This document shows, one piece after another, positions 10,279 through 25,501 of a stretch of 48,347 bases of DNA. How positions within the stretch are numbered: position 1 is the first letter of the stretch; each line of letters opens with the position of its first letter. The position numbers and the translations under genes were made by a program. This stretch comes from Kiloniellales bacterium. GTDB lineage: Bacteria; Pseudomonadota; Alphaproteobacteria; Kiloniellales; JAKSBE01. The notes under the pieces were generated by a model, which searched no databases, was not told the DNA's origin, and worked only from the letters and a program-made list of their open reading frames with translations. Where the stretch lies: positions 1 through 48,347 of the forward strand of contig JANQGU010000300.1 in assembly GCA_028282935.1 (NCBI GenBank), read 5' to 3'.

Positions 10279-11040
10279 ATGTTCAAGTTCCTGGTGGAAG
10301 AGATCGACTCGATCATGCGCCGCGATCCAGCGGCCCGCTCCCGTTTCGAGGTGGCCCTCTGCAATCCGGGCTTCCAGGCGATCCTGTTCTACCGCCTGGC
10401 GAACGGGGCCTGGCGGCGCGGCTGGCACCTGACCGGCCGTTTCCTGTCGCAGGCCGCGCGCTGGTTCACCGGGATCGAGATCCATCCCGGCGCCAGCATC
10501 GGCCGCCGGCTCTTCATCGACCACGGGATGGGCGTGGTGATCGGCGAGACCAGCCACATCGGCGACGACGTCACGCTCTACCACGACGTCACCCTGGGCG
10601 GCGTGGCGCCCAGCGTCGACAGCGACAGCCAGCGCAACCAGAAGCGCCACCCGACCCTGGAGAGCGGGGTGATCGTCGGCTCCGGGGCCCAGATCCTGGG
10701 GCCGATCACGGTCGGCAGCAACGCCAGGATCGGCGCCAACGCGGTGGTGACCAAGGACGTGCCGACCTGCGTGACCGTGGTCGGGATTCCGGGCAAGGTC
10801 GTCCAGCCGGCGGCCAAGCGGGAAGAGCAGCCTGCCTTCGTCGCCTACGGCACGCCGACCGGGGACCTGCCCGATCCGGTGGCGCGGGCGATCGAAGGCC
10901 TGATGGACGAGGTTTCGCGCCTGCGGGCGCGGATCAACGACCTGGAGGCCCGGGCCGAGGCCGGCGGCAAGGTCGACGGCCTGGCGGTCGAGCCAGCCGC
11001 CGAGGACGGCGCCGGCGACGCGCCCCAGGGCAAGTGCTAG
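10279..11040 (+). CDS. cysE: serine O-acetyltransferase
   Basis: [48 protein letters not shown]...[44 protein letters not shown]; left-handed beta-helix hexapeptide repeats. Confidence 0.95.
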
Positions 11041-19615: not shown

Positions 19616-19692
19616 GGCGGGGTAGCTCAGCTGGTTAGAGCAGCGGAATCATAATCCGCGTGTCGGGGGTTCGAGTCCCTCCCCCGCTACCA
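19616..19692 (+). tRNA. tRNA-Met (CAU), elongator-type, encoded CCA
   Basis: Cloverleaf by eye: acceptor GGCGGGG/CCCCGCT, D-arm GCTCAGCTGGTTAGAGC, anticodon arm GCGGA-ATCATAA-TCCGC, T-arm GGGGG-TTCGAGT-CCCTC, 3' ACCA. Confidence 0.94.
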
Positions 19693-19720
19693 CTCGAAAG
19701 GCGTAGAGTTGCTGGGATAG

Positions 19721-19748
19721 CGGGCCTTTGAGGCCCGTTTCTCTTTTC
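19721..19748 (+). terminator. intrinsic terminator after tRNA-Met
   Basis: CGGGCCT-TTG-AGGCCCG followed by TTTCTCTTTT. Confidence 0.75.
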
Positions 19749-20070
19749 TAGAGTCCGAGTCCCCTGTGCTTAGTCTCATGTCTGCATGAAACTACCAGGC
19801 GCAGGTTCTCGATCGTCCGTAGGGTGTAGGCGGGCCGTGTATGGCTCACCGACTTGTACCGCGGTTGGTCCCGGCCCCTCTGGCACACCAAGTGCTAAGC
19901 CAACGGCCGGTGTGGGGTCTGGCTGGTCCGCTGGACAACGCATTGCTCCACTGCTTCCTTCCAGGCGGTGCTGTCCTTCTAAGCAAGCATCTGTTGATCT
20001 GTGTAGCGATCGCCGCGCGTATCCAGAACGTTTGATGCCCTTCGCCTCCCTATGAGCGAACGTCCCGCTG

Positions 20071-20093
20071 GCCTCCCGCTAGGGGGCTTTTTT
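20071..20093 (+). terminator. intrinsic terminator upstream of the AAA ATPase gene
   Basis: GCCTCC-CGCTAG-GGGGGC-type stem followed by TTTTTT. Confidence 0.65.
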
Positions 20094-20245
20094 CCTGGAC
20101 CTGACACCTTTCCTAAGACAAGCATGTAACTGTGCAACTGCACCGATAGCTGACAGAATGCTGTTTGGGCGCAACTTTAACAAAAATCCGTTGCTTTGGG
20201 GCCGCGAGGCGCGCATATGGTATTGCTGAAAGCGGAGAATTGCCG

Positions 20246-21457
20246 ATGATCCACAAGATTGAGATTGAGAACTTCCAGTCTATCCGCGGTCCGCAGGTTC
20301 TTGATCTTAGAGCAGCGGCTAACGCGCCGAAGAACACCAATCGCCTCGCGAAGTGCTGGCACGGCTCCGATGATCGCGTGCCAAAGGTTGTGGCACTCTT
20401 CGGTCCAAATGGCTCAGGCAAGTCAAATGTGCTTCGCGCACTAACGTTCACGACGTGGTTCATTTCGCACAGCTTCTCTCTCTCACCTACCCACCGCATT
20501 CCTTTTGAGCCGTTCAACGATGAAGAGGCGCTAGAAAGCCCCACTAGGCTGAAAGTCTGGACATCAGGCGTTGACCCTCTGGTTGACAACAACCAGACCG
20601 GAACGATCCAGTGCCAGTACTGCTACGAGTTGATAGTCTGCAATGGTGAACGCCGTGAGGTTTTGAACGAGGCATTCTTTTTTTGGCCTTCGGCGACCGG
20701 CCGTAGAACGCGACTGGTCGAGAGATTCAGCGATGGCTCGATTAAAGCGGCGAAAGCATTCGAGCTAGCTGGCTATCATCGTGCACTTGAGACGGTGCTG
20801 CGTCCTAACGCCAGTATCATATCTACTCTTGCGCAACTCAACCATCCTTTTGCAAAGAAAATCGCCGACCGGACGAGTCTTGTTAGCTCGAATATCTTTA
20901 TTGAGAAAACTGAGACTTCCGACGATCTCGCACTTCGTCAATACGTTGACCATCCGAATTTGGTGAGCCAATTCAACCGCGAGATACAGCGCATAGACGT
21001 CGGTCTTCGTGCGCTCGACGTCCGATCGACACCCAATGGACCGCAAGTGCTTTTTCTGCATGAAGGATTAGCGGTTCCAATGCCGTTCTTTCTAGAGAGT
21101 CATGGCACGCAGCAATTCCTCAAACTCTATCCAATGCTGCTCAGCGCGCTCTCCCTTGGTAGTATTGCGATTATAGATGAGCTTGATGCGGCAATTCATC
21201 CTATGATCTTGCCAGAAATTATTCGCTGGTTTCATGACTCCAAACGCAATCCAAACAATGCGCAGCTTTGGATGAGTTGTCACAATGCCTCTCTTCTAGA
21301 AGATCTCTCAAAAGATGAAATCGTGTTTTGTGATAAGGATCATCGAGGAAGAACAGAGATATACAGCTTGAATGATATCAAGGCTGTTCGTCGCGATGAC
21401 AACTACTACAAAAAATACATAGGCGGTATCTTTGGCGCTGTTCCGCAGGTCGGCTGA
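20246..21457 (+). CDS. AAA15/RloA-like (AbiL-type) ATPase, putative defence-system ATPase
   Basis: MIHKIEIENFQSIRGPQVLDL; Walker A GPNGSGKS; ABC/SMC-like C-terminus LYPMLLSALSLGSIAIIDELDAAIHPMILPEIIRWF...QLWMSCHNASLLEDLSKDEIVFCDKDHRGRTEIYSLND. Lower GC than the flanks. Confidence 0.87.
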   Translation: MIHKIEIENFQSIRGPQVLDLRAAANAPKNTNRLAKCWHGSDDRVPKVVALFGPNGSGKSNVLRALTFTTWFISHSFSLSPTHRIPFEPFNDEEALESPTRLKVWTSGVDPLVDNNQTGTIQCQYCYELIVCNGERREVLNEAFFFWPSATGRRTRLVERFSDGSIKAAKAFELAGYHRALETVLRPNASIISTLAQLNHPFAKKIADRTSLVSSNIFIEKTETSDDLALRQYVDHPNLVSQFNREIQRIDVGLRALDVRSTPNGPQVLFLHEGLAVPMPFFLESHGTQQFLKLYPMLLSALSLGSIAIIDELDAAIHPMILPEIIRWFHDSKRNPNNAQLWMSCHNASLLEDLSKDEIVFCDKDHRGRTEIYSLNDIKAVRRDDNYYKKYIGGIFGAVPQVG

Positions 21458-22017
21458 TGCCACGCAGTCGAAGTTTCAGAGAAAAGCGGCGACGAGTATT
21501 TGTCGCCTGCGAAGGCGAGAGCGAGCGAAGCTATACAGTATTTCTAAGCCAGTTGGCTGAAGAAATGGGGTTGCCATTGCATCTCGATCCTTGGTGTTGC
21601 TCTGGTGGTGATCCTTTGTCGATCGTCGAGCGTGCGGTGAATGAGATGTTCCGCCGCATCAGTCGTCGCGGGGCCTACGCCGAGCGCGCGATACTTCTTG
21701 ATGGTGACAGGCGAAGTGATTCGCCAGACCGTACAATGCAAGCCGATCGTCTAATCGAGGCGAACGGCATACGCCCAGTTTGGTCGTATCCAACGCTCGA
21801 GGCGCTTCTGCTCAGACACCTTCCAGGCTGTGCGACGTTGCGGCCAGCGACGCCGGAGTTGGCGTTTCGGGAACTCAAGAGACGCTGGCCGGAATACGCA
21901 AAGGGGGCTTCCGCGCATGAGCTTCGCCGTCAGCTCGATCTTGCGGCGGTTCGGCGCGCAGCTGCGGTCGACGCCCAGCTTCGCTCGGTCCTCATCGCGA
22001 TTGGTTTACTTCCCTAG
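21457..22017 (+). CDS. RloB-like protein (putative TOPRIM-fold nuclease partner)
   Basis: 186 aa; REKRRRVFVACEGESERSYTVFL (TOPRIM-type Glu), ILLDGDRR (DxD), YPTLEALLLRHL. The preceding gene's stop TGA overlaps this start ATG (ATG at 21457). Confidence 0.82.
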   Translation: MPRSRSFREKRRRVFVACEGESERSYTVFLSQLAEEMGLPLHLDPWCCSGGDPLSIVERAVNEMFRRISRRGAYAERAILLDGDRRSDSPDRTMQADRLIEANGIRPVWSYPTLEALLLRHLPGCATLRPATPELAFRELKRRWPEYAKGASAHELRRQLDLAAVRRAAAVDAQLRSVLIAIGLLP

Positions 22018-22630
22018 CGAAGACAGGATTCACCCCAAAGCTAAAAGTGCAGGCTTTGCACGCGTTTTCATAGTGTTGGTGATCAGTTCACCAGACCCAG
22101 GCGCCCAGTGGGATGCTTGTCGCGGTATCGGATAGCCTCTTCCGCACAATTAAATCAATGCGCTGGAGGGCTTTTAGGAGAACCCCGCTACCAATTGACA
22201 ACACTGAACTCCCAATTCTCTCTAACAGGGCTTTGCTGGCAGCTTCACAGAGGCGCGCGCCTCTTTTCGGTTTTGCTCTGGCTAGCTGCTTGGTCAGCGA
22301 CCGAATCTGGATGTCTCTACCAGTCAACTCCGACTGCAGTGCTTCCAAATTCAGACCTGTTCATCAGGGCCACTGGACGGCGGGTTGTGACCCCAAGCTG
22401 ACCTTGCGGCTGCCCTTGATCCGGGTTCGTTGATTGCTCGCGCTACCGGCCCTCTGGCGCTTCCGAGCACGGCGGTACCGCCGGTTTTGGCGCCATGACT
22501 GTCGGTCTTGGTGCCTTGCAATCCTCGCCGGCTTTGGGCTCCCGCCTTTCGGGTCTCGATCGGCGCCGCGGTTCCCCGCGCGGCTCGCGCTCGCCGCTTC
22601 GGGTCATGGCGCGGCTGCAGCGGCCGATGG

Positions 22631-23026: not shown

Positions 23027-23665
23027 CTACTTCTGGGCGAAGGCCCAGACGGCCACGGGCCAGCCCGGCTCGTTCTTCAGGCTCCCGAAGAGGCCGCGGC
23101 GCGGCCAGGTACCGTCCATGTGGGCCTTGATCCAGGCGCGGTTGCCCCAGGCGCCGGTCCGTATCCGCTCGAGGTCCCAGCCGCACTCGGCCAGGAAGTA
23201 GCGCAGCCCGTCCTCGCTCCAGCGCGAGCAGTCGAGCGGCCCGTCGTGGAGGCGCACGAGGAAGGGCGTGGCGCAGATGAACCAGCCTCCCGGCCTCAGC
23301 ATGTCATGGACGTTGCGGCCGGCGCGGTAGGGCCACTTCAGGTGCTCGAAGATCTGGTCGGCGATGATCAGGTCGAAGCGGGCGTCGAGCTTGCCTTCGC
23401 AGATGTCGAACTCCGGATACCTGGTCTCCCGGTAGGACTTGAAGCCGTGCTGTTGGTAGTTGTGCCCCGAGGAGATCTCCAGGGCGTCGAGCCGCTCCGG
23501 CCCGAGCTCCCGAATGAAGGCGTTGCAGGCGTCGTAGAGCGCGATCCGTGACCAGTGCCGCGTGTCGTAGAAGGGGACGAGGTCTCCGCGCCTGAGCCGG
23601 GCCTTCTGTTCCTCGGAGAGCAGCCGCCGGGCCAGCTTCGTGATCAGGACGTTCAGTGCGCCCAT
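23027..23665 (-). CDS. class I SAM-dependent methyltransferase
   Basis: LDALEISSGHNYQQHGFKSYRETRYPEFDICEGKLDARFDLIIADQIFEHLKWPYRAGRNVHDMLRPGGWFICATPFLVRLH. Confidence 0.84.
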   Translation of the reverse strand: MGALNVLITKLARRLLSEEQKARLRRGDLVPFYDTRHWSRIALYDACNAFIRELGPERLDALEISSGHNYQQHGFKSYRETRYPEFDICEGKLDARFDLIIADQIFEHLKWPYRAGRNVHDMLRPGGWFICATPFLVRLHDGPLDCSRWSEDGLRYFLAECGWDLERIRTGAWGNRAWIKAHMDGTWPRRGLFGSLKNEPGWPVAVWAFAQK

Positions 23666-23771
23666 CGGGACCTCCCGTTTGCGTCCGCCGGACCGGGCGG
23701 GTGCGTGTCGCTGCGGGGACCGCGGCGAGAAGACATCGGCGGAACGCTAAGACCGCAGAGGAACCCCCACG

Positions 23772-25133
23772 TTAGTTGCCCGTCAGCAAGTCGAACCTTC
23801 TCCTGTCGATCGAGGCGCGGCTCTCGAGTCCGGCCGCGACGCAAAGGTCGGGCGCATAGAGCTGACAGGTGCTGCGCTCGGTCACGGCCTTGTCGAGCTG
23901 CTCCAGAAGCCGGCCGGGGTCGATATGCCCCGGGGCGGCGATCCGGCCGGTGACGACGTGCTTCTCCACCCCTTCGTGACGGGCGTGGTCGAGGTCGGGA
24001 TCGCGCCAGCAACTCGCGCAGAGCATCCGGAAGTTCTCCGAGTGCGCATAGACGACGGCGTCTTCCTGCAGGTCGCGGCTCATGTCGGCCAGTTGGCGGG
24101 CTTCGCCCTGGGTGCCGGCGAAGTCGAAGAAGCGGTAGTTCCGCCGGATCAAGGTCGCGAGGTGGGGAAAGACGGCGACCTCCACGTCACCGTAGGTGTG
24201 ATAGGTGATCGGCGCGCCGTCCATGAGAACGACGTCGCCGTAGTCGACGCCCAGGTCCTGGTAGAGGACGCTGCGGATGATCCCGTGGCAGGGACTCAGG
24301 CGCTCGATCCATATCGTCTCCTCCAGCCCCGGGTCGTCCGCCTCCGCGCTGCGCTCGGCGAGCGGCCGTTCGGCGAGCTTGACCTTGCACTGGGGGTAGC
24401 CGCCCTCGGGCAGGCCGAAGCGGCCCAGTTCGATCTTCTGGCCCATGCGCTTCCAGACCTCCAAGGCAAGCTCGCCCCTCCCGGCGCCGGTGGCGCAGAT
24501 CCCGAGGTTCCACTCGATGCTCTCGACCGTCTCCTCCGCCAGGCGCGCCGCGATCCGGTTCGATTCCATGCCGTCTTCGAACCGGCCGCGCGTCTTGTAG
24601 AAGAGGCCCAGGTTGTAGTGGTAGGCGCTGTTCTCCGGATCGATCTCGGTCAGGCGCCGATAGCTCCGCTCCGCGATGCCGTCGCCTTGACGCGCCAGCA
24701 TGCGCGCCGCGGTGGCCAGCCCGCCGAGCAGGCCCTCCTCCTCGGCGCCGCCCTGGTGGTCTTCGGCGAGGCCGGCGAGTTTCTCGACGACGTCGTGGAA
24801 GACGGCGTCTTCGGGCGGCGCCGCGTTGAGATCGTCGATGTCGCGCGCGGACTCCAGGCATTCTCCGAGCGCCTGCAGAAGGTCCAGGTCTTCGCCATGA
24901 GACCCTGCGATCTCCGAAAGGACCTCGGCGGCGGCCTCCCTCGAGAGGCACTGCCGGTCGACGACAAGAAGCAGAGACGCCGCGGCGTCCTTCTGGTGGT
25001 GCTGCGCGTTCCGCAGCCGCTGCACCTTCTCCCGGACGGCCTCGTCCCGCCCGGCCCGGGAGTCTTCGACGATCTCGTCCTCGAGGGACTCGATTTCCTC
25101 GGCGGAGAGGGTCTGGCTCGGGAGGAAGGGCAT
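23772..25133 (-). CDS. tetratricopeptide-repeat protein with unrecognised C-terminal region
   Basis: From MPFLPSQTLSAEEIESLEDEIVED; TPR-like SYRRLTEIDPENSAYHYNLGLFYKTRGRFEDGMESNRIAARLA; C-terminus IERLSPCHGIIRSVLYQDLGVDYGDVVLMDGAPITYHTYGDVEVAVFPHLATLIRRNYRFFDFAGTQGEARQLADMSRDLQEDAVVYAHSENFRMLCASCWRDPDLDHARHEG. Confidence 0.72.
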   Translation of the reverse strand: MPFLPSQTLSAEEIESLEDEIVEDSRAGRDEAVREKVQRLRNAQHHQKDAAASLLLVVDRQCLSREAAAEVLSEIAGSHGEDLDLLQALGECLESARDIDDLNAAPPEDAVFHDVVEKLAGLAEDHQGGAEEEGLLGGLATAARMLARQGDGIAERSYRRLTEIDPENSAYHYNLGLFYKTRGRFEDGMESNRIAARLAEETVESIEWNLGICATGAGRGELALEVWKRMGQKIELGRFGLPEGGYPQCKVKLAERPLAERSAEADDPGLEETIWIERLSPCHGIIRSVLYQDLGVDYGDVVLMDGAPITYHTYGDVEVAVFPHLATLIRRNYRFFDFAGTQGEARQLADMSRDLQEDAVVYAHSENFRMLCASCWRDPDLDHARHEGVEKHVVTGRIAAPGHIDPGRLLEQLDKAVTERSTCQLYAPDLCVAAGLESRASIDRRRFDLLTGN

Positions 25134-25501
25134 GGGCGTCTTCTCTGAACAGCTGTTCCGGGTTTCGGCGCGCCGGGCGCAGTTCGACACGCCAGCAGTC
25201 TGCCGCCAGGTCGTTTACGCTTCGTGTCCCGCCGGCCCGCCGCCCTGGATCATACCGCGCTCGATACGAAACGATTGATCGCAGTGGTCTCGTCGGGGAC
25301 GGCGAACTGGATGGGCCGGACCCTCGCCATGCCGGTCTCCAGGTGCTCTCTCGGCTCCGACCGCCCTCTTGGGCCTGTCCCAAGACAGTATTATGCCGCG
25401 CGGGCGCAGGAAGACAGAGGTTTCCATTGCCGACGGGGGGCCGCGACTATTTCTACCGCCGGTTCGTTGTTCCTATTTTGTTCTTACCCTAGCCTTGCGG
25501 C

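Follow-up and report, generated by a model that had tools for sequence, protein, structure and literature searches.

A stretch of 48,347 nucleotides from a Kiloniellales bacterium (the window) very probably encodes an AbiL-type abortive-infection system that reached the chromosome at a tRNA-Met gene, on a small segment of low GC. The locus shows membership in the family, conserved motifs left intact, a conserved layout of two genes, and signs that it was acquired horizontally, and the pair is a genuine, apparently intact, and otherwise ordinary member of the AbiL family in mobile low-GC DNA. A first-pass annotation, made from the sequence letters and their open reading frames, had proposed a two-gene AbiL/RloAB-like defense candidate next to a tRNA; its interpretation was largely right, and the system is of a known kind.

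Organization of the locus

As the annotation had described, both open reading frames are present and stop and start overlap (ATGA), and the adjacent tRNA is tRNA-Met(CAU) (Table 1). The length of gene 1 is counted from ATG; its mechanical open reading frame begins further upstream, at a TTG at 20165. Genes neighboring the pair encode a tRNA-methyl transferase (MnmA-like), SCP2, tRNA-Met, methyltransferase-fold and TPR proteins, and pantoate ligase. No restriction genes were seen among these neighbors, placing the pair outside any restriction-modification locus.

TABLE 1 Features of the AbiL-type pair and its surroundings in the window
Feature	Coordinates	Strand	Basis or remark
tRNA-Met(CAU)	19616-19692	+	ARAGORN; where the low-GC segment presumably integrated (att)
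Terminator-like hairpin with T run, upstream of the pair	20070-20093	+	Pattern scan only
abiLi (gene 1), ABC/AAA_21-type ATPase, 403 aa	20246-21457	+	PADLOC, Pfam, alignments, AlphaFold2
abiLii (gene 2), RloB/Toprim-like putative nuclease, 186 aa	21457-22017	+	Pfam, PADLOC, alignment, AlphaFold2
Exact 11-bp direct repeat of the tRNA-Met 3' end (CCCCGCTACCA), possibly what remains of an attachment site	22183-22193	+	

Assignment to AbiL

Gene 1 matches the PADLOC model AbiLi (PDLC02335) across residues 1 to 402 (1.1e-70), with AriA as the runner-up (4.4e-28) about 140 bits below. Its best Pfam family is AAA_21 (2e-24). Gene 2 matches RloB (PF13707) in Pfam (5.4e-8; 33.7 bits, cutoff 31.5) and AbiLii in PADLOC (4e-9, a low score); among the Pfam and PADLOC profiles, AbiLii and RloB were its only matches and AriB (DUF4435) was not one of them. 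In NCBIfam, no model came up to its cutoff. Matches to AbiLi and RloB/AbiLii with none to AriB make the pair, as judged from sequence, AbiL by the usual criteria, in agreement with the AbiL/RloAB-type system first proposed. The pairing of an AAA15 ATPase with RloB that had been suggested holds for RloB, which clears its Pfam cutoff, and not for AAA_15, which falls under its own. The annotation had named two outcomes that would speak against its reading, a lack of profile matches and a conserved, vertically inherited housekeeping context; AbiL and RloB profiles do match, and the context is neither conserved nor vertical.

All of the motifs that the annotation had named are present. The ATPase carries Walker A (GPNGSGKS), Walker B (IIDELD), and H-loop (SCHN) sequences along with the signature LESHGT and a C-terminal YxKYxxGxxGxVPxxG motif, which are retained in the ATPase alignments (A1 and A4). 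The partner carries ACEGESE and LLDGD motifs, and in an alignment of 22 RloB homologues (A3) residues E19, G20, D82, and E115 are invariant while E23 and D84 are nearly so. An AlphaFold2 model of AbiLi (pLDDT, 88.6) resembles PtuA of Septu and retron-Eco7, OLD nuclease, and Rad50, with PtuA and OLD as the best PDB matches; a PDB sequence search with the ATPase gave weak SMC and PtuA matches and nothing stronger. The AbiLii model (pLDDT, 95.1) alternates strands and helices. Among the 50 matches listed by a Foldseek search of the PDB with this model there was no Toprim protein, and no match reached E ≤ 0.001; a PDB sequence search with the partner gave nothing relevant. With no significant match for this model in the PDB, assignment to the Toprim fold relies on the motifs and on published work, namely an HHpred statement in PMC10440598.

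Relatives in genomes, plasmids, and viruses

Close relatives, at about 35 to 54% identity, are found on alphaproteobacterial plasmids, viral contigs, and genomes, mostly in the same two-gene layout, and are already annotated as an ATPase plus RloB domain protein. Genome contigs supplied nine relatives; an RloB-like gene lies directly downstream in six of the eight long ones, with the ATGA overlap in four. In a plasmid collection, 114 records match gene 1 and 14 were found with gene 2. The best plasmid matches (54% identical), from Agrobacterium, Rhizobium, and Sphingobium, are annotated as an ATPase followed by an "RloB domain-containing protein." Plasmid relatives adjoin other defense-like genes: of two neighborhoods examined, the first includes CHAT, HNH, and WYL-domain genes and the second NACHT, VapC, and a tyrosine recombinase. 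Viral contigs contain 47 relatives, most with an RloB-like partner of 166 to 236 aa. The annotation had called the partner compact and the pair possibly a minimal variant, a suggestion left unsupported since the partner, given this range in its relatives, is unremarkable in size; a self-contained two-gene layout is also standard for AbiL. Eight phage records match, including a Lactococcus prophage in which both genes carry the annotation "abortive phage resistance protein" and homology to the studied pair is detectable: hhalign gives 98% probability between the AbiLii alignment and lactococcal prophage ORF56, and the lactococcal phage protein shares 31% identity with the C-terminal segment of the ATPase.

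A low-GC segment at tRNA-Met

The lower GC content noted for the pair was borne out: GC is 0.498 in gene 1 and 0.588 in gene 2 versus 0.676 in the whole window. Low GC starts right after tRNA-Met(CAU), averages 0.537 from the tRNA end to the 11-bp repeat (19693-22193), and continues beyond that copy to about 22430 (0.557). The repeat is the sole further copy in the window of the 11-bp tRNA-Met 3' end, and of every 10,000 simulated sequences, 3 (0.0003) had a match of that length within the 5.8 kb that follow the tRNA. The ATPase is absent from both same-genus genomes examined, in which the contigs end beside the marker gene. Among the genomes of 60 relatives there are just two distant matches besides the window's own genome, and class-wide, 3 of 289 genomes, counting the window's own, have a match at 1e-30. 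Low GC, patchy presence, and adjacency to tRNA-Met(CAU) together make the DNA of the pair look horizontally acquired. Integrase genes are present elsewhere in the genome, and none was found in the segment beside the pair.

The window and one congener (G002) differ throughout from the tRNA to about 25447, which suggests that the tRNA-Met(CAU) site is an integration hotspot. On G002 contig C13, the end of a low-GC stretch falls at position 10432, and from 12589, corresponding to window position 25447, the contig is again syntenic with the window.

Other observations concern the same region. The low-GC stretch in G002 ends in a 48-bp repeat of the 3' half of tRNA-Met(CAU) (L042:10385-10432), which probably marks a separate integration event at the same tRNA. 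In the window, an 86-aa open reading frame (22088-22348, minus strand) spans the tRNA-end repeat; it has no Pfam match and may be due to chance. Between the pair and the resumption of G002 synteny lie a methyltransferase-fold gene and a TPR-containing gene (23027-25190, minus strand), the latter with a 75% identical DNA match on a different contig in another genus (G006).

Known systems and proposed mechanism

The first description of AbiL (AbiLi/AbiLii) came from Lactococcus lactis (Deng et al. 1999, as cited in PMC10440598 and PMC3985639). Like it, the studied pair is a two-gene operon that joins an RloB-type partner to an AAA/ABC ATPase, whose gene comes first, and both profiles match; it differs in being distant in sequence and in coming from another host group. 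The names RloAB and AbiL overlap and refer to one set of protein families. RloA/RloB pairs are associated with type I restriction loci; they have these families (RloB, PF13707) in common with the studied pair, which differs in having no restriction genes alongside. PtuA of Septu and retron-Eco7 and the OLD nucleases share the ATPase fold, whereas the Septu partner PtuB is an HNH nuclease and OLD has its Toprim domain fused. The ATPase is also related to AriA of PARIS, which has an analogous layout of guard and Toprim effector (PMC12409363), but the partner here is of RloB type rather than AriB.

From published AbiL and PARIS work, we infer a defense function, restraint by the ATPase, and a nuclease activity with its target. 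AbiLi is an SMC/Rad50-like ABC ATPase, most likely multimeric, that probably keeps AbiLii inactive when phage is absent and most likely senses a phage product. AbiLii is an RloB-type protein with a putative Toprim fold, and its conserved acidic residues would bind metal; once freed, it most likely cuts RNA (probably tRNA) or DNA, and this cleavage would stop the growth of the infected cell. In PARIS, an AriA hexamer sequesters AriB, a Toprim tRNase, which phage triggers release (PMC12409363), and an RloB-family Toprim toxin is neutralized by an AAA ATPase in Escherichia coli (PMC10440598). The AbiLii protein from Fusobacterium proved toxic in E. coli, although in one published test its AbiLi failed to neutralize it (PMC3985639), a point against the reading given here. 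Published work supports a guard-and-effector model. In the literature found, there was no phage assay of this pair or its close subgroup.

Alternative explanations

Because AriA models are among the matches of the ATPase (4.4e-28) and PARIS has the same two-gene layout, the locus might instead be a PARIS-like system combining an AriA-like ATPase with an AriB-type (DUF4435) tRNase. We regard this as very unlikely, since the AbiLi score lies about 140 bits above that of AriA, and the matches of the partner are to RloB/AbiLii and to no AriB model. PARIS membership was rejected on the identity of gene 2, which is RloB/AbiLii by Pfam and PADLOC and not the AriB partner that PARIS calls for.

An improbable alternative is that the genes are a toxin-antitoxin pair retained mainly to stabilize mobile DNA rather than to defend against phage, as might be argued from the residence of relatives on plasmids and from the toxin-antitoxin behavior of an RloB-family/AAA pair in E. 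coli (PMC10440598). Against it, lactococcal AbiL was described as an abortive phage infection system (PMC10440598, PMC3985639), and the plasmid relatives neighbor other defense-like genes; the two roles are not exclusive. That the pair is a decaying, nonfunctional remnant left after integration has a nearly negligible probability: integrase is absent next to it and the tRNA-end copy is just 11 bp, but neither reading frame is truncated and all of the conserved motifs are intact. The AbiL explanation itself has points against it in the low AbiLii profile score, the shortness of the 11-bp repeat, and the lack of an integrase in the segment.

Significance and variation within the family

The locus provides a further AbiL example, clean and self-contained, in a bacterium of high GC, and indicates tRNA-Met(CAU) as a variable site within the genus. 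Since no biochemical target of AbiLii-type RloB proteins is reported in the literature found, any compact AbiL-type pair is a reasonable assay subject, and the studied pair has no special claim over its many annotated relatives. There is a small chance that short RloB proteins with alphaproteobacterial AbiLi form a subgroup with another substrate or trigger than lactococcal AbiL, carried as a tiny integrase-less cassette in tRNA-Met sites.

In two alphaproteobacterial MAGs, AbiLi orthologues (L020:6001-7209 and L021:6001-7209) have no RloB-like gene downstream and have altered ATPase motifs, with Walker B changed from IDELD to IDGLD and the signature from LESHGT to FEGRGA. Of 71 differing codons, 51 are nevertheless synonymous, which suggests that purifying selection acts on an ATPase that stands alone and has perhaps been repurposed.
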